A stretch of DNA of 64,000 bases, from assembly GCF_009392895.1 (NCBI RefSeq), contig NZ_CP045488.1, forward strand, positions 3,038,001 through 3,102,000, given 5' to 3'. The stretch's first letter is position 1. Every line of letters begins with the position of its first letter. Origin of the DNA: Natronorubrum aibiense (GTDB lineage Archaea; Halobacteriota; Halobacteria; Halobacteriales; Natrialbaceae). The position numbers were made by a program, and so were the translations under genes. Under the pieces are notes generated by a model. It saw only the letters and a list, made by a program, of their open reading frames with translations. It did not search any database and was not told the DNA's origin. This document shows, one piece after another, positions 44,652-51,223 of this stretch.

Positions 44652-45326
44652 ATGGCCCAGGCGACACTCACAATCACGATGCCCGAACAGGTCTGGATCC
44701 AACAGCTGTCGACGGCGTATCCGGCGGCGACCTTTCGGGTACTCGCGGCCGTCCCCGGCTCCGAGACCGGATTCGCCCTCGTTCGGATCTCCAGCACCGA
44801 AATCGACGACGTGATCGCGGACATGCGCGACCACCCCCAGATCCTCGAACTCACGCTCGCCGAGTCGAGCGAGGACGAGGCGACGGTTCATTTCGAGACG
44901 ACCGCCCCGCTGCTGTTGTTTTCCGCGCGGGAAGCCGGAATGCCGATCGAACTCCCCGTCGAAGTGGTCGACGGCGAGGCGACGATCGAAGTCACCGGTT
45001 CCCGGGACCGCCTCGCCGAACTCGCCGAACAGTTCGAGCGATTCGGTCTCTCGTATCGGATCGAGCACGTCCGCGAGCACCTCCACGAGAGTCAGTTACT
45101 CTCGGACCGCCAACTCGAGGTCGCCGTGGCCGCCGTCGAAGAGGGCTACTACGATACGCCTCGTCGCTGCTCGTTGACGGAACTCGCTGAGCAACTCGGA
45201 ATCGCAAAATCGACCTGCAGTGAGACACTCCACCGAGCCGAAGAGGGGATCATCAAACGGTTCGTCGAGGACCTCCCCGACCCCGATACCGAAGAGCCGC
45301 TCGAGGACCAGCTCGCACACAGCTGA
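44652..45326 (+). CDS. Bat-like HTH_10 transcriptional regulator
   Basis: A 224-residue regulator. The N-terminal ~150 residues form the sensor-like domain seen in bacterio-opsin-activator (Bat) relatives. The C-terminal HTH_10 domain starts LSDRQLEVAVAAVEEGYYDTPRRCSLTELAEQLGIAKSTCSETLHRAEEGIIKRF, with recognition helix AKSTCSETLHRAE. There are no GAF or PAS domains, so the inducing signal is unknown. It has its own promoter, and a perfect 19-bp inverted repeat precedes the TATA box. It ends directly against the convergent cupin gene. Confidence 0.88.
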   Translation: MAQATLTITMPEQVWIQQLSTAYPAATFRVLAAVPGSETGFALVRISSTEIDDVIADMRDHPQILELTLAESSEDEATVHFETTAPLLLFSAREAGMPIELPVEVVDGEATIEVTGSRDRLAELAEQFERFGLSYRIEHVREHLHESQLLSDRQLEVAVAAVEEGYYDTPRRCSLTELAEQLGIAKSTCSETLHRAEEGIIKRFVEDLPDPDTEEPLEDQLAHS

Positions 45327-46045: not shown

Positions 46046-47833
46046 ATGAGCACGGACGACGAATCATTCCACCCACTCGGTCAAGAGTGGGAAGGCGAAC
46101 TCGAGGAGATGCTCGATGACACCGAGTACGACAGCGACCTGGGAATGAAGATGGCCCAGGACGCGATGCGGGTCACGAAAGGCGAGCTCTCCGAGGCCGA
46201 ATTCCACGAAATGTATCACGACGATGTGATGGATGAATTCGGCGTCGACGACCGCCCAACCGAAGCCGCCTACGAGCAGGCTCAAGAAGAGCAGAAGGGA
46301 ACTGCGACCCGGATGCTCGAGGCCTTCGAGGGCGACGGCGAACAGAGCCGCCGCGAGACGATGAAGAAAATGGGTGCCGGTGCAGCGGCCGTCGGTCTCG
46401 GTGCGTGGGGCACCGCCGACGACGGTCCGGAGGCGAACCTCGCCGCGGCCGACGACCACTCCAGCTACGGGAAGGTCGAAAACGACGGCACCCAGCTCGG
46501 GATGGTTATCGACCTCGAGCGCTGTGACGGCTGTCTCTCCTGTGTTGCTGCCTGTCAGGAAGAGAACAACACCGACCAGGGTGTCAACTGGATGTACGTC
46601 CTCGATTACGAGGAACCCGACGGGGACAACTCCGGGTCGCGAAACCGACTCGTCCGACCGTGTCAGCACTGTACTGACGCGCCCTGTGAGAAGGTCTGTC
46701 CGACGACGGCTCGACACACCCGTGACAAAGACGGCCTCGTCTTGACCGACTACGACGTCTGTATCGGCTGTCGCTACTGTCAGGTCGCCTGTCCGTACGG
46801 CGTCAACTACTTCCAGTGGGACGAGCCGTCGGTTACGACGGACGAGATCGAACAGGAAGCCCAGGACATGGGCATGGACGGCGACCACATGACCGACCAC
46901 CGCGGTCGCTGGGTCGACAGTCGCGCTCCCCGTGGTGTGATGAGCAAGTGTACCATGTGCCCGACCCGACAGGACGGTCACATGGGTGACGAGAAGGTCG
47001 GAACGACGGCCTGTGAGGACGCCTGCCCGCCGGAAGCGATCAACTTCGGCGACATGAACGACCCCGAGAGCAAACCGCAGCAGTATCTCACCAACGTCGT
47101 TCAGACCCGTGCAGAGCGCATGGTTGACGGCCAGAGCCCCAACCGCGAAGACGTCCAGGAGTCGTACGACTTCCTCGAGGGCGACGTCGAACTGCTCGAC
47201 ATGGAGTACCTCGAGAACGGCGAGCAGGACGAAATCGAAGCTGCGTTGTTCATTCAGGGTGAACTCTCCGAGAGCGAGCTGACGCTCGAGGACGAGGAAC
47301 TCCGCGACATCGTCATCGACATCATCGGCGAGGCCGATGCACTCGCCGAACTCGAAGAGGAGGAACTCGGCACGCTCGCCGACGTCCTGCTCGGCGATGC
47401 AAGCGAGAACGACGTCGATTCGGACGACCTTGACGCTGCCAACGCAGCGATCGACACCGTCATCACGGACGCCGAGGAAGGCATTGAGGCTGTCGTCGAC
47501 CGATACGAATCGCGCGAGATCACGCCCGCCGAAGTCGAAGAGTCGCTGGCGCTGCTCGACGGCGAAGAGGAGCCGTGGGTGACCGAAGAAGGGATCACCG
47601 ACGAAGACAGCGCCCGGAGCGTGCTCGAGGCCTACGCCGGCGGCGAAGCGTCGACGTTCAAACTGCTCGAGGACGTTGGGACGAACCCGAACGTCACCTA
47701 CATCGGCAACGAACCCGGCCCAGAGGCCGAACAGGTCGAAGGCCCCGTTGCATACTCTGACATCGGCGGGACGGACAACCGCAAAGACGTGCTCGACGAG
47801 AAGACCGTCGGTAACGCTGGGGTGAGCCTATGA
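46046..47833 (+). CDS. Four-cluster 4Fe-4S respiratory subunit with late Tat-like motif
   Basis: A 595-residue PsrB/NrfC/DmsB-like protein. After a ~100-residue acidic N-terminal domain comes SRRETMKKMGAGAAAVGLGAWG, a Tat-like stretch. Four cluster motifs follow: CDGCLSCVAAC (160-170), CQHCTDAPCEKVCP (206-219), CIGCRYCQVACP (239-250) and CTMC…CEDACP (302-328). The last ~250 residues are an acidic helical extension not found in ordinary PsrB. It is the first gene of an operon with NrfD (4-nt overlap). An electron-transfer role between a quinone site and an unknown partner is inferred. No molybdopterin subunit is present. Confidence 0.88.
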   Translation: MSTDDESFHPLGQEWEGELEEMLDDTEYDSDLGMKMAQDAMRVTKGELSEAEFHEMYHDDVMDEFGVDDRPTEAAYEQAQEEQKGTATRMLEAFEGDGEQSRRETMKKMGAGAAAVGLGAWGTADDGPEANLAAADDHSSYGKVENDGTQLGMVIDLERCDGCLSCVAACQEENNTDQGVNWMYVLDYEEPDGDNSGSRNRLVRPCQHCTDAPCEKVCPTTARHTRDKDGLVLTDYDVCIGCRYCQVACPYGVNYFQWDEPSVTTDEIEQEAQDMGMDGDHMTDHRGRWVDSRAPRGVMSKCTMCPTRQDGHMGDEKVGTTACEDACPPEAINFGDMNDPESKPQQYLTNVVQTRAERMVDGQSPNREDVQESYDFLEGDVELLDMEYLENGEQDEIEAALFIQGELSESELTLEDEELRDIVIDIIGEADALAELEEEELGTLADVLLGDASENDVDSDDLDAANAAIDTVITDAEEGIEAVVDRYESREITPAEVEESLALLDGEEEPWVTEEGITDEDSARSVLEAYAGGEASTFKLLEDVGTNPNVTYIGNEPGPEAEQVEGPVAYSDIGGTDNRKDVLDEKTVGNAGVSL

Positions 47834-49194
47834 GTACCAAGACCCCATCCGAAGCGGACATTCTCCGACCGGTCAACAACGTCTCGAAGAAGTACTTCAT
47901 GCTGTTCGGTGCCGCCGCGTTGGCACTCGGTGCGTTCCTCGTCGCCTGGATGTACCAGTTGGCAAATGGGATGGCCGTCACTGGCCTCTCGGACTGGGGA
48001 TCCGGTGGCGGTGTGACGTGGGGGCTGTACATCGGTGCGTTCATTTGGTGGGTCGGGATCGCTCACGGGGGGATTATTCTCTCTGCAGCCGTCCGCCTGC
48101 TCGACATGGACCGTTATATGCCGGTCGCCCGACTGGCCGAACTGCTGACGATTGCCGGCCTTTCCGCTGCTGGATTTTATATTCTGGTCCACATGGGTCG
48201 ACCGGACCGAATGGTCACGAGCGTGCTCGGTCACTACCACATCACGGTCAACAACTCGCCACTGGTGTGGGACGTGACGGTCATTACGGCGTACTTCGTC
48301 CTGACAGCGACGTACCTCGCGCTGACGCTCCGGTATGACATCACGCGACTGCGTGATCAGCTGCCGGACTACTTCGAGCCGGTCTACAAGGTCCTGACCC
48401 TCGGCTACACCAAAGACGAAGACGAGATCGTTGAGCGGATGGTCTGGTGGCTCGCACTCGCGATCATCATCATGGCACCACTCCTGCTTCACGGCGGTGT
48501 GATCCCGTGGCTGTTCGCGGTGCTCCCCGGTATGCCCGGCTGGTTCAGTGCCGTGCAGGGACCACAGTTCCTGACTATCGCGCTGACCTCCGCGATCAGT
48601 GGCGTCATCATCGTCGCCGCCGCGTTCCGCCGTGCCTACGACTGGGACCACATCATGACTGACGACGTCTTCCGTGGCCTGCTCCTGTGGCTCGGATTCT
48701 TCTGTCTGCTGTTCCTCTGGTTGCAGCTCCAGCAGAACGTCGTCGGCCTGTTCAAGGCCCCGGTCAACGTCGGCGTCGCACGGCAGGCGACGATCGGACA
48801 CCCACTGTACCAGCTCTCGATGGGCATGGTCTTCCTGACGCTCGCGTTCATCTTCGCACAGACGGTCCGTCCATCGTTGTTTTCGAGGACTCGAGCCATT
48901 GTCGCTGCATTCGCAGTGCTCACGGCAACCCTGATCGAGAAGATGTTGTTCGTCGTCGAGGGCTTCTTCCACCCGACGTTCGAAATCTACGCCGCAACGC
49001 CCGGAGAGTACTTTCCGAGTGCGATCGAGTGGCTCTCGCTGCTCGGCACGACGGGACTTGTCGTGTTGATCTTCCTCGTCGTCTCCAAGCTCGTCCCCGT
49101 GGTCGAACTCCACGCGGTCGAACACCTTCGTGGCGATCACGGACACGGCCACGAGGCAGATGAAACCGAGACGACCAAGGAGGTGAAAGCATGA
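47830..49194 (+). CDS. NrfD/PsrC-type quinone-interacting membrane subunit
   Basis: A 454-residue integral membrane protein with about ten helices, in the polysulfide-reductase NrfD family. Family marks are the early WGLYIGAFIWWVGIAHGGIILSAAVRLL, where the Gly/His-rich helix lines the quinone site, and LLTIAGLSAAGFYILVHMGRPDRM. These subunits exchange electrons between membrane quinone and the Fe-S partner. A His-rich tail (HGHGHEADE) ends it. Both ends overlap neighbouring genes by 4 nt (ATGA). Heme-binding motifs are absent, as usual for NrfD. Confidence 0.93.
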   Translation: MSTKTPSEADILRPVNNVSKKYFMLFGAAALALGAFLVAWMYQLANGMAVTGLSDWGSGGGVTWGLYIGAFIWWVGIAHGGIILSAAVRLLDMDRYMPVARLAELLTIAGLSAAGFYILVHMGRPDRMVTSVLGHYHITVNNSPLVWDVTVITAYFVLTATYLALTLRYDITRLRDQLPDYFEPVYKVLTLGYTKDEDEIVERMVWWLALAIIIMAPLLLHGGVIPWLFAVLPGMPGWFSAVQGPQFLTIALTSAISGVIIVAAAFRRAYDWDHIMTDDVFRGLLLWLGFFCLLFLWLQLQQNVVGLFKAPVNVGVARQATIGHPLYQLSMGMVFLTLAFIFAQTVRPSLFSRTRAIVAAFAVLTATLIEKMLFVVEGFFHPTFEIYAATPGEYFPSAIEWLSLLGTTGLVVLIFLVVSKLVPVVELHAVEHLRGDHGHGHEADETETTKEVKA

Positions 49195-49529
49195 GTACCG
49201 CACTTCCAGCACTTATGGATGCCGTCCTCTACCACGGCTACAGCGGCACTGAAGGATTGACTGGTTTCCCCAACATCGGGACCTACCTGATCTTCGCAGT
49301 CATCCTGGTGCCGGTCTACATCATGGTCATCTCGTGGTTCGCCGGCGAACCACGTGATACGAAGACCGGAATGCTCGGCGTCTCCTACCTCATCGGTATC
49401 ACCGCGCAGATGTGGATCGGGATGTTCATCCTGACCGTGATCATCGGTCTCGTCTTCTACGGCGGAATGCCGGAACCGCTCGGGGCAGCCGGCCCGTCGA
49501 ATGACTCGCCGATCTTCAGCTTCCTGTAA
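49191..49529 (+). CDS. Small two-helix membrane protein, NrfD operon
   Basis: A 112-residue protein with two helices (IGTYLIFAVILVPVYIMVISWFAG and MWIGMFILTVIIGLVFYGGM) linked by EPRDTKTGMLGVSYLIG. A strong Shine-Dalgarno GGAGGTGA (49179-49186) lies just before the ATG, which overlaps the nrfD stop. A close paralog follows at 49726. It is likely an accessory subunit of the NrfD complex. No family function recognised. Confidence 0.82.
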   Translation: MSTALPALMDAVLYHGYSGTEGLTGFPNIGTYLIFAVILVPVYIMVISWFAGEPRDTKTGMLGVSYLIGITAQMWIGMFILTVIIGLVFYGGMPEPLGAAGPSNDSPIFSFL

Positions 49530-49725: not shown

Positions 49726-50010
49726 ATGACACTTCCTGCGACACTGGCGACGGTCCTCTATCACGGGTACGAGGGCACTGCAGGGTGGACTGGGTTTGCT
49801 AACGAGGGGACGTATATCATCTTCGGCGTCATCTTGGTCCCGATCTACGTCATGGTCGTCGCGTGGTTCGCCGGGTCGCCTCGAGGCACGAAAACGGGGC
49901 TACTCGGCGTCTCCTATCTCGTCGGCATTGCGACGAGCATGTGGGTTTCGATGCTCGTCCTGACGGTCCTGATCGGGCTGATCTTCTACGGCGAGTTACC
50001 GGGCGTCTAA
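49726..50010 (+). CDS. Paralog of the small NrfD-operon membrane protein
   Basis: A 94-residue protein clearly homologous to the gene at 49191. The shared pattern runs VLYHGYEGTAGWTGFANEGTYIIFGVILVPIYVMVVAWFAGSPRGTKTGLLGVSYLVGIATSMWVSMLVLTVLIGLIFYG with two membrane helices. It lacks the 18-residue C-terminal tail of its sister. The ~200-nt gap, an AT-rich patch and a palindrome suggest a separate promoter, so the duplicate may be expressed differently. Confidence 0.82.
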   Translation: MTLPATLATVLYHGYEGTAGWTGFANEGTYIIFGVILVPIYVMVVAWFAGSPRGTKTGLLGVSYLVGIATSMWVSMLVLTVLIGLIFYGELPGV

Positions 50011-50128: not shown

Positions 50129-51223
50129 ATGAGTATCACAGAACACGAACTCAAGATCGAACTCGAGGGGATCGAAGATCCGGACATCGGCGAGGACATC
50201 GTCTCGCTCGGGTTGGTCAACGACGTCCGCATCGAGGACGAGACGGCCAAGATCTCGCTTGCACTGAACGCGCCGTATGCGCCCTCCGAGATGGAACTCG
50301 GCAACCGAATTCGTGAAGTCGTCAGTGAGGCCGGGCTCGAGGCCGACCTACGTGCCCACGTCGGTTCGGAACACGGGTTCGACGACGAAGTGTTGCCCCG
50401 CGTGCGAAACGTCATCGCCGTCTCCTCCGGGAAAGGCGGTGTTGGGAAGACGACGGTCGCTGCAAATCTCGCTGCGGGCCTCGAGAAGCGCGGTGCCATG
50501 GTCGGCCTGCTCGACGCCGACATTCACGGGCCGAACGTCCCACGGATTCTGCCGGTCGAGACCGAGCCCGGAGTCACCCCGAGCGAGGATATCGTTCCAC
50601 CGCGCTCCGACGGCGTCCGGGTCATCAGTATGGGCTTTATGATGGAAGAGGAAGACGACCCCGCGATCCTCCGCGGCCCGATGGTCAACAAGTTCATGCT
50701 GAAGTTCCTCGAGGGTGTCGAGTGGGGCCGACTCGACTACCTCATCGTCGACCTGCCGCCGGGAACGGGTGACGCGACGCTGAATCTGTTGCAGTCGATG
50801 CCCGTGACGGGGGCCGTCGTCGTCACGACGCCCCAGGAGATGGCGCTCGACGACACGCGGAAAGGCATCCAGATGTTCAACAAACACGACACACCAGTGC
50901 TGGGCGTCGTCGAGAACATGAGTTCGTTCGTCTGCCCGTCCTGTGGCGACGAACACGGCCTCTTTGGCACCGAGGGTGCCCAGAGCATCGTCGACAAGTA
51001 CGACATCCCGCTGCTCGGCCAGATTCCGATCCACCCCGACTTCGGTGCCGAGGGCAGCGAAGGTGCGCTGGTCAAAGACGATTCGAGTCCGGTCCAAGAA
51101 ACCGTCGAGGAGTTCGTTGCGGAAGTGTCCGACCGCGTCGGCGAGACCAACCGCCGGACGGTCGCCGAACACGTCGGTGGCGGCGAACCGGACGACGCGC
51201 TCCCGACCGAAACGGAAGACTAG
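50129..51223 (+). CDS. mrp: Mrp/ApbC-type Fe-S carrier ATPase
   Basis: A 364-residue P-loop ATPase that binds and transfers Fe-S clusters. The N-terminal DUF59/MIP18-like domain spans residues ~1-80. The deviant Walker A is SSGKGGVGKTTVAANLA (P-loop ~101-109). DADIHGPNVPRIL follows, then VDLPPGTGDATL, and the cluster-bridging CPSC at 269-272 (SFVCPSCGDEHGLFG). A C-terminal acidic tail ends it. It lies downstream of the respiratory Fe-S genes, which may or may not be meaningful. Confidence 0.95.
   Translation: MSITEHELKIELEGIEDPDIGEDIVSLGLVNDVRIEDETAKISLALNAPYAPSEMELGNRIREVVSEAGLEADLRAHVGSEHGFDDEVLPRVRNVIAVSSGKGGVGKTTVAANLAAGLEKRGAMVGLLDADIHGPNVPRILPVETEPGVTPSEDIVPPRSDGVRVISMGFMMEEEDDPAILRGPMVNKFMLKFLEGVEWGRLDYLIVDLPPGTGDATLNLLQSMPVTGAVVVTTPQEMALDDTRKGIQMFNKHDTPVLGVVENMSSFVCPSCGDEHGLFGTEGAQSIVDKYDIPLLGQIPIHPDFGAEGSEGALVKDDSSPVQETVEEFVAEVSDRVGETNRRTVAEHVGGGEPDDALPTETED

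Follow-up and report, generated by a model that had tools for sequence, protein, structure and literature searches.

A putative heme- and molybdenum-free relative of alternative complex III as a candidate menaquinol:halocyanin oxidoreductase in Natronorubrum aibiense

Analysis of a 64,000 nucleotide stretch of the Natronorubrum aibiense genome (contig NZ_CP045488.1, positions 3,038,001 to 3,102,000), which we refer to as the window, revealed a three-gene operon encoding an Fe-S protein, an NrfD membrane subunit and a small membrane protein (Table 1). We discuss this operon here as a candidate menaquinol:halocyanin oxidoreductase related to alternative complex III (ACIII). An earlier reading of the same DNA from its letters alone (the sequence-only reading) had placed a four-cluster Fe-S protein and an NrfD subunit in one operon, and both genes were confirmed at their positions. 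The stop and start codons of adjacent genes overlap (ATGA) at each junction, all on the + strand, and the three genes are translationally coupled. The NrfD subunit matched Pfam family PF03916 (E = 7e-19) and its closest named relative at this locus was the NrfD of Natronorubrum thiooxidans (96% identity). The small membrane protein had no Pfam match and no family worth naming in Pfam or NCBIfam; its tandem paralogue, which was identical to it at 60 of 90 aligned residues, had no match in an NCBIfam search. Comparison of 80 named loci, comprising 46 operons and 34 orphan NrfD genes, showed that the small membrane gene lay directly 3′ of NrfD in 46/46 operons, that the Mrp gene followed within three genes downstream in 44/46 and that the HTH_10 regulator was just upstream in 41/46.

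Table 1. Positions in the window of the operon, of features within its Fe-S subunit gene and of conserved neighbouring genes
Feature	Position (bp)	Strand	Details
HTH_10 (bacterioopsin-activator-type) regulator, conserved upstream	44652..45326	+	PF04967, E = 7e-20
Fe-S subunit gene	46046..47833	+	595 aa, Tat-type, four-cluster
Ferredoxin_N domain (residues 9-73), N-terminal to twin arginine	46070..46264	+	PF16947, E = 4e-34
Twin arginine R102-R103 (Tat-like SRRETMKKMG)	46349..46354	+	Invariant in orthologues
Four [4Fe-4S] cluster motifs (residues 160-327)	46523..47026	+	16 Cys
Variable acidic insert (residues ~346-533)	47081..47644	+	Shorter orthologues lack the insert
NrfD membrane subunit gene, ActC-like	47830..49194	+	454 aa; putative menaquinol site H79, H121, D148 (invariant)
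Small membrane subunit gene	49191..49529	+	112 aa
Small membrane subunit tandem paralogue	49726..50010	+	94 aa
Mrp/ApbC-type Fe-S carrier ATPase, conserved downstream gene	50129..51223	+	PF10609, E = 3e-91

The Fe-S protein contained exactly 16 Cys residues, all of which were inside the four cluster motifs (residues 160-170, 206-218, 239-249 and 302-327). Its closest relatives in the PDB were ArrB, the Fe-S domain of ActB, and PsrB. Where the window's protein has the second Cys of its third motif, the aligned ActB chain carries a non-Cys residue. R102 and R103, together with K108, were invariant in 16/16 and in 28/28 orthologues. The sequence-only reading had described an acidic domain of ~100 residues before the twin arginine and an acidic C-terminal extension of ~250 residues. 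Residues 1-100 were indeed acidic (32% aspartate plus glutamate, D+E) but they held a known Pfam domain, PF16947. The second acidic region was also present but was mostly an internal insert of ~190 residues (32% D+E) that was missing in shorter orthologues (~412-428 amino acids, aa) and was followed by a conserved C-terminus (residues 534-595). A plain extension was therefore ruled out, as the last ~60 residues were conserved and the acidic stretch was an insert. The AlphaFold model of this subunit was poor, with a predicted local distance difference test score (pLDDT) of 53 and a predicted template modelling score (pTM) of 0.38; only the helical N-terminal region reached a pLDDT of ~65-80.

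A free-standing Ferredoxin_N open reading frame (ORF) of 77-121 aa was found directly before a large twin-arginine ORF in all seven such loci that were read (L114-L117 and L119-L121). It often overlapped the large ORF, and Fe-S and NrfD genes came next. The large ORFs of L114 and L121 matched NCBIfam molybdopterin families, and the other five were judged by likeness. As the Ferredoxin_N ORF directly preceded the twin-arginine ORF in 7/7 loci, the domain would travel with the exported subunit; as the domain forms part of the Fe-S subunit in the window, that subunit seems, from this gene arrangement, to be the exported head subunit itself. Additionally, the position of PF16947 before molybdopterin subunits of the twin-arginine translocation (Tat) type suggests a general role in handling exported Fe-S/Mo proteins.

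No molybdopterin gene flanked the operon in the window or at its locus, which bore out the claim of the sequence-only reading that a catalytic molybdopterin subunit is missing on either side, and the Fe-S protein itself had no PF00384 match. That reading had also pointed to the rest of the genome, which was 99.98% complete, as the place where a dedicated molybdoenzyme partner might be found; none was. Only two proteins genome-wide matched PF00384, namely FdhA, a formate dehydrogenase alpha subunit of cytoplasmic type (TIGR01591, 730.7 bits against a cut-off of 666), and the assimilatory haloarchaeal NasA (NF041323, 1176 bits against a cut-off of 1000). Neither started with a twin-arginine signal in our gene calls, and they are not Psr-type partners. 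An ordinary split complex of the Psr or dimethyl sulfoxide (DMSO) reductase type, with its molybdoenzyme partner encoded elsewhere or shared, would suit the place of the Fe-S subunit in the Psr/Arr/ActB superfamily and the existence of related haloarchaeal operons with a molybdopterin subunit. However, with FdhA and NasA as the only PF00384 proteins in the genome a split Psr complex was ruled out as a candidate. The twin arginine is on the Fe-S subunit here and on the catalytic subunit in the molybdenum operons read, and in a gene tree the NrfD proteins of molybdoenzyme operons were outside the clade of the operon NrfDs (95/90), though on very long branches. We hold this explanation to be extremely improbable.

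A sequence search of the PDB with NrfD matched four ActC chains only (E 9e-19 to 9e-14), and a profile search gave ActC at 5e-29 to 5e-27 with the next match at 0.62. An AlphaFold model of NrfD built from 40 relatives (pLDDT 74, pTM 0.80) aligned with the four ActC chains at Z scores of 34.4-35.6 over 421-428 residues; the other scores were 26.8 for ActF, 15-20 for bd oxidases and 16.0 for PsrC, and the remaining chains were below 8. Foldseek searches of the model gave E values of 5e-14 to 1e-11 for ActC versus 5e-3 for PsrC. By sequence and by model, the NrfD of the window is thus ActC-like rather than PsrC-like. In the ActC of Rhodothermus marinus, His139, Asp169 and Asp253 are described as charged residues of the quinol site (PMC5928083). 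Of these, His139 and Asp169 aligned with NrfD H121 and D148, which were invariant in 17/17 and 40/40 relatives. Counterparts of ActC half-channel residues, read by eye, were found in NrfD at H79, S85, R101, E104, T107, Y155, D170 and R175.

Full membership of canonical ACIII was ruled out by subunit content. ActD (PF11821) was over the cut-off in 0/292 haloarchaeal genomes, including that of N. aibiense, and the MopB-like half of ActB was not found, only the Fe-S half being encoded. No ActA or ActE heme protein was seen by gene content in the window and the 46 named operon loci, the genome not having been searched for CXXCH. With ActD and the MopB half missing, the operon is best called a minimal ACIII-like variant, not a full member. 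The sequence-only reading had offered a stand-alone quinone-linked complex or something like ACIII, and both descriptions fit, the NrfD being ActC-like.

A quinone reductase resembling Qrc or DsrMKJOP, in which an outside donor reduces the Fe-S chain and this in turn reduces menaquinone, would agree with the best NCBIfam matches, which were DsrO (142 of 200 bits) and QrcC (120.9 of 400) for the Fe-S subunit and DsrP (90.5 of 350) for NrfD, all under the curated cut-offs. Four [4Fe-4S] clusters would also suit low-potential transfer. Against this, the structurally known protein nearest to NrfD was ActC, neither DsrMK nor a cytochrome nor a Qrc-like catalytic subunit was encoded beside the operon, and genomes without cytochrome b need a step that oxidises quinol. 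We regard the reverse direction as decidedly unlikely.

The distribution of the operon was examined in 292 Halobacteria genomes, with cytochrome b defined by PF00033 and strong NrfD by E < 1e-100. Cytochrome b was present in 222 genomes and absent from 70, and strong NrfD was present in 97 (hand count); the N. aibiense genome had no PF00033 match. Strong NrfD was found in 68/70 genomes without cytochrome b compared to 29/222 with it (Fisher 2e-40, a value that ignores kinship). In the window's own family the counts were 57/57 and 8/18, respectively, and in other families 11/13 and 21/204. Among genera of uniform state, NrfD occurred in 20/21 without cytochrome b versus 13/54 with it. Two genomes that lacked both cytochrome b and NrfD (G007 and G093) lacked COX1 and COX2 too.

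Shared ancestry could produce such a pattern if the operon had an unrelated role and simply marked the clades of Natrialbaceae and certain other lineages: one family accounts for 57 of the 70 genomes without cytochrome b, and the test of independent contrasts was underpowered. The pattern recurred, however, in at least five other genera of three other families (g38, g57, g62, g73 and g77). In a marker tree of 30 genomes (the first-listed genome of each genus in the window's family and seven more), rebuilt on codons, three to four of four supported independent contrasts were in the expected direction and no supported pair was discordant; this tree still has weak support and some long branches (G218, G129). 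The first marker tree, in which a single, probably misoriented row sat on a very long branch, gave 4-5 concordant pairs among seven supported and none discordant. We consider shared ancestry alone a very improbable explanation.

The gene neighbourhood of the operon suggested blue copper proteins as candidate partners. In L075, L077, L084, L085 and L087 the gene directly before the Fe-S gene encoded a copper protein of the plastocyanin/azurin family (PF00127), in L076 such a gene was divergent next to it, and the copper protein of L079 was just under the PF00127 cut-off (20.1 of 21.2 bits). Among the 46 named operon loci a halocyanin-type gene was immediately upstream in four and anywhere in the locus in seven; it was found in 2/34 orphan-NrfD loci. 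In L076 (11408-14815; genome G129, 46.6% GC, without COX1, COX2 or cytochrome b) the operon adjoins a copper protein, and an ATPase resembling a copper P-type pump was also beside it.

NirK was present within 13/46 operon loci versus 0/34 orphan-NrfD loci. At the genome level, 23/29 genomes with cytochrome b and strong NrfD had NirK over the cut-off versus 100/193 with cytochrome b only (hand count), an association that is only moderate. A well supported NrfD subclade (99/100) comprised five sampled genomes, all with cytochrome b, and included L080, in which NirK adjoins the operon. This subclade would be a denitrification version of the operon, explaining part of the co-occurrence with cytochrome b. 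No NirK was found in the window's locus, and none was over the cut-off in its genome (best 1.3e-8). In two loci, L085 (1827-3230) and L087 (13143-14576), a CtaA-like region (weak, under cut-off) fused to a UbiA prenyltransferase (PF01040, E = 3e-57 in L085) was located between NirK and the operon.

COX2 was present in 25/28 of the genomes without cytochrome b that were examined (26/28 with strong NrfD), and the CuA motif C-x3-C-x3-H-x2-M was kept in 30/30 COX2 loci, mostly the best-scoring ones, of genomes without cytochrome b. A CuA site takes up electrons singly, so a step from quinol to a one-electron carrier is expected. The N. aibiense genome encoded five COX1 genes over the cut-off, three of which had beside them a subunit II carrying the CuA motif, one of these passing the CoxB cut-off. 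The COX1 ORFs of L103 (7357-9798) and L107 (6009-9314) encoded 813 aa and 1101 aa, respectively, and no NCBIfam model matched the latter at 1e-10.

The operon could instead be a donor specific to denitrification, passing electrons from menaquinol through halocyanin to NirK only, while oxidases in genomes without cytochrome b draw on menaquinol directly. Several loci have NirK, halocyanin and DUF2249-like genes clustered around the operon, and the 99/100 subclade holds only genomes with cytochrome b. Moreover, a 2018 report (PMC6176080) describes natronoarchaea as having neither complex III nor alternative homologues and concludes that their oxidases are quinol oxidases. Yet N. aibiense keeps the operon with no NirK over the cut-off, all 57 family members without cytochrome b keep NrfD, and the retention of CuA in every COX2 locus implies a one-electron donor. 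This explanation we consider unlikely.

We think it probable, if by no means assured, that the operon encodes a minimal, heme-free and molybdenum-free relative of ACIII acting as a menaquinol:halocyanin oxidoreductase that replaces complex III. The computed basis of this reading comprises the composition of the operon, the ActC kinship, the missing molybdoenzyme partner, the replacement of cytochrome b, the gene neighbourhood and CuA retention. In the proposed mechanism the ActC-like NrfD would oxidise menaquinol near the outer membrane face, and electrons would then pass through the Tat-exported Fe-S subunit by way of its four [4Fe-4S] clusters, with the small membrane subunit as a fixed partner of the complex. 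A halocyanin-type blue copper protein would be the final acceptor, which would feed CuA-bearing terminal oxidases and, in some species, also the copper nitrite reductase NirK. We infer the export, the catalytic direction, the acceptor role of halocyanin and any proton pumping. There is fair support for naming halocyanin as the electron partner and complex III as the thing replaced, and the operon is the strongest candidate for the complex III that is missing from N. aibiense and from the roughly one quarter of sampled haloarchaea without cytochrome b. The bolder statement, that the long-missing complex III of haloarchaea without bc1 is a menaquinol:halocyanin oxidoreductase derived from ACIII, with three subunits, no cytochrome and possibly proton pumping via the conserved ActC half-channel residues, we would put at even chances.

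Several observations weigh against this assignment, whose weakest points include the direction in which electrons flow and how few independent evolutionary contrasts there are. The marker-tree contrasts gave p values of 0.125-0.25 and were too few for significance. NrfD in 29 of the 222 genomes with cytochrome b indicates that the operon is not only a replacement, and PF00033 may count NarC-type cytochrome b besides PetB, NarC being described as homologous to the cytochrome b of the bc1 complex (PMC8301774). Genome G129 has the operon but neither COX1 nor COX2. The window's operon has no adjacent halocyanin gene, seven PF00127 proteins being encoded elsewhere in the genome. A motif scan found no CuA subunit adjacent to the COX1 genes of L103 and L107, so that electrons may instead be carried by oxidases acting directly on quinol, cytochrome bd being one possible route. 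Within the proteins themselves, ActC Asp253 aligned with a non-acidic residue of NrfD, and the four Cys at the position of the [3Fe-4S] cluster of ActB mean that the potential may be low.

A cupin gene at 45,327-45,653 bp of the window, on the opposite strand, fills the slot that halocyanin occupies in several relatives, and a relative of this cupin gene was also near the operon in L084. Menaquinone biosynthesis genes were located between 24,545 bp and 37,217 bp of the window, ~9-20 kb upstream of the operon. Three of these were over their cut-offs, namely isochorismate synthase (370 of 225 bits), MenD (454 of 244) and MenA (223 of 102); a MenC-like protein was under its cut-off and MenE fell just short (328 of 330). 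The genome also encoded a second, orphan Fe-S subunit of 530 aa (L003 7147-8739, at ~64 kb of contig C1), near an electron transfer flavoprotein (ETF)-like gene pair and a FixC-like gene, as judged by eye. A second NrfD (L070 8077-9426, at ~523 kb of C1) was 74% identical to that of the operon, was likewise an orphan and was far from L003; orphan NrfD genes resembling it are common in Natrialbaceae (34/80 loci). The orphan Fe-S and NrfD proteins may form a second complex.

The transfer of electrons from the quinone pool to halocyanin was stated in 2012 to be unresolved in species without bc1, with Haloterrigena (Htg.) turkmenica, Natronomonas (Nmn.) pharaonis and Natrialba (Nab.) magadii as the species named (PMC3403918), and the same gap was stated in 2021 for about a third of haloarchaea (PMC8305020). 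No published link between NrfD and halocyanin was found in the open-licence literature, a scope outside which most subscription journals lie. The operon provides a concrete, deletable candidate for this route. If the assignment is true, no smaller member of the ACIII kind would be known, and the ACIII Fe-S wire, which has no clear role in bacteria, would prove able to deliver all of the electrons to a copper protein. The operon would then serve as a natural experiment on which parts of ACIII are really needed.

The operon was compared with the closest known systems. The DsrMKJOP (DsrO/DsrP), QrcABCD and Hmc complexes share with it the nearest NCBIfam models, DsrO/QrcC-like for the Fe-S subunit and DsrP-like for NrfD, but these scored below their cut-offs and the other subunits are not beside the operon. 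PsrABC and other complex iron-sulfur molybdoenzymes (CISM) share the four-cluster Fe-S subunit and, by the PF03916 match, an NrfD anchor; in contrast, the operon has no molybdopterin subunit, with none fitting in the genome, its NrfD lies much nearer ActC than PsrC (Z 35 vs 16) and its Fe-S subunit bears a Tat-like signal. Cytochrome bc1/b6f (haloarchaeal petABD) would have the same role as proposed here, from menaquinol to a one-electron carrier, although the proteins are unrelated, N. aibiense has no cytochrome b and a Q-cycle is not expected. To our knowledge, neither the Ferredoxin_N domain nor the small membrane protein is part of ACIII. The operon also differs from ACIII (ActABCDEF) in having no ActF-like second NrfD and in the four Cys of its Fe-S protein at the site of the [3Fe-4S] cluster of ActB. 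With ACIII it shares an ActC-type ten-helix NrfD with equivalents of His139 and Asp169, an ActB-like Fe-S domain, co-occurrence with cytochrome b loss, CuA oxidases and, as in Chloroflexus, a putative blue copper acceptor. The Chloroflexus ACIII has been proposed to hand electrons to the blue copper protein auracyanin in an article that cites a paper on menaquinol:auracyanin oxidoreductase activity (PMC3150298). The operon, while not a member by full subunit set, would work like an ACIII with a copper-protein acceptor.

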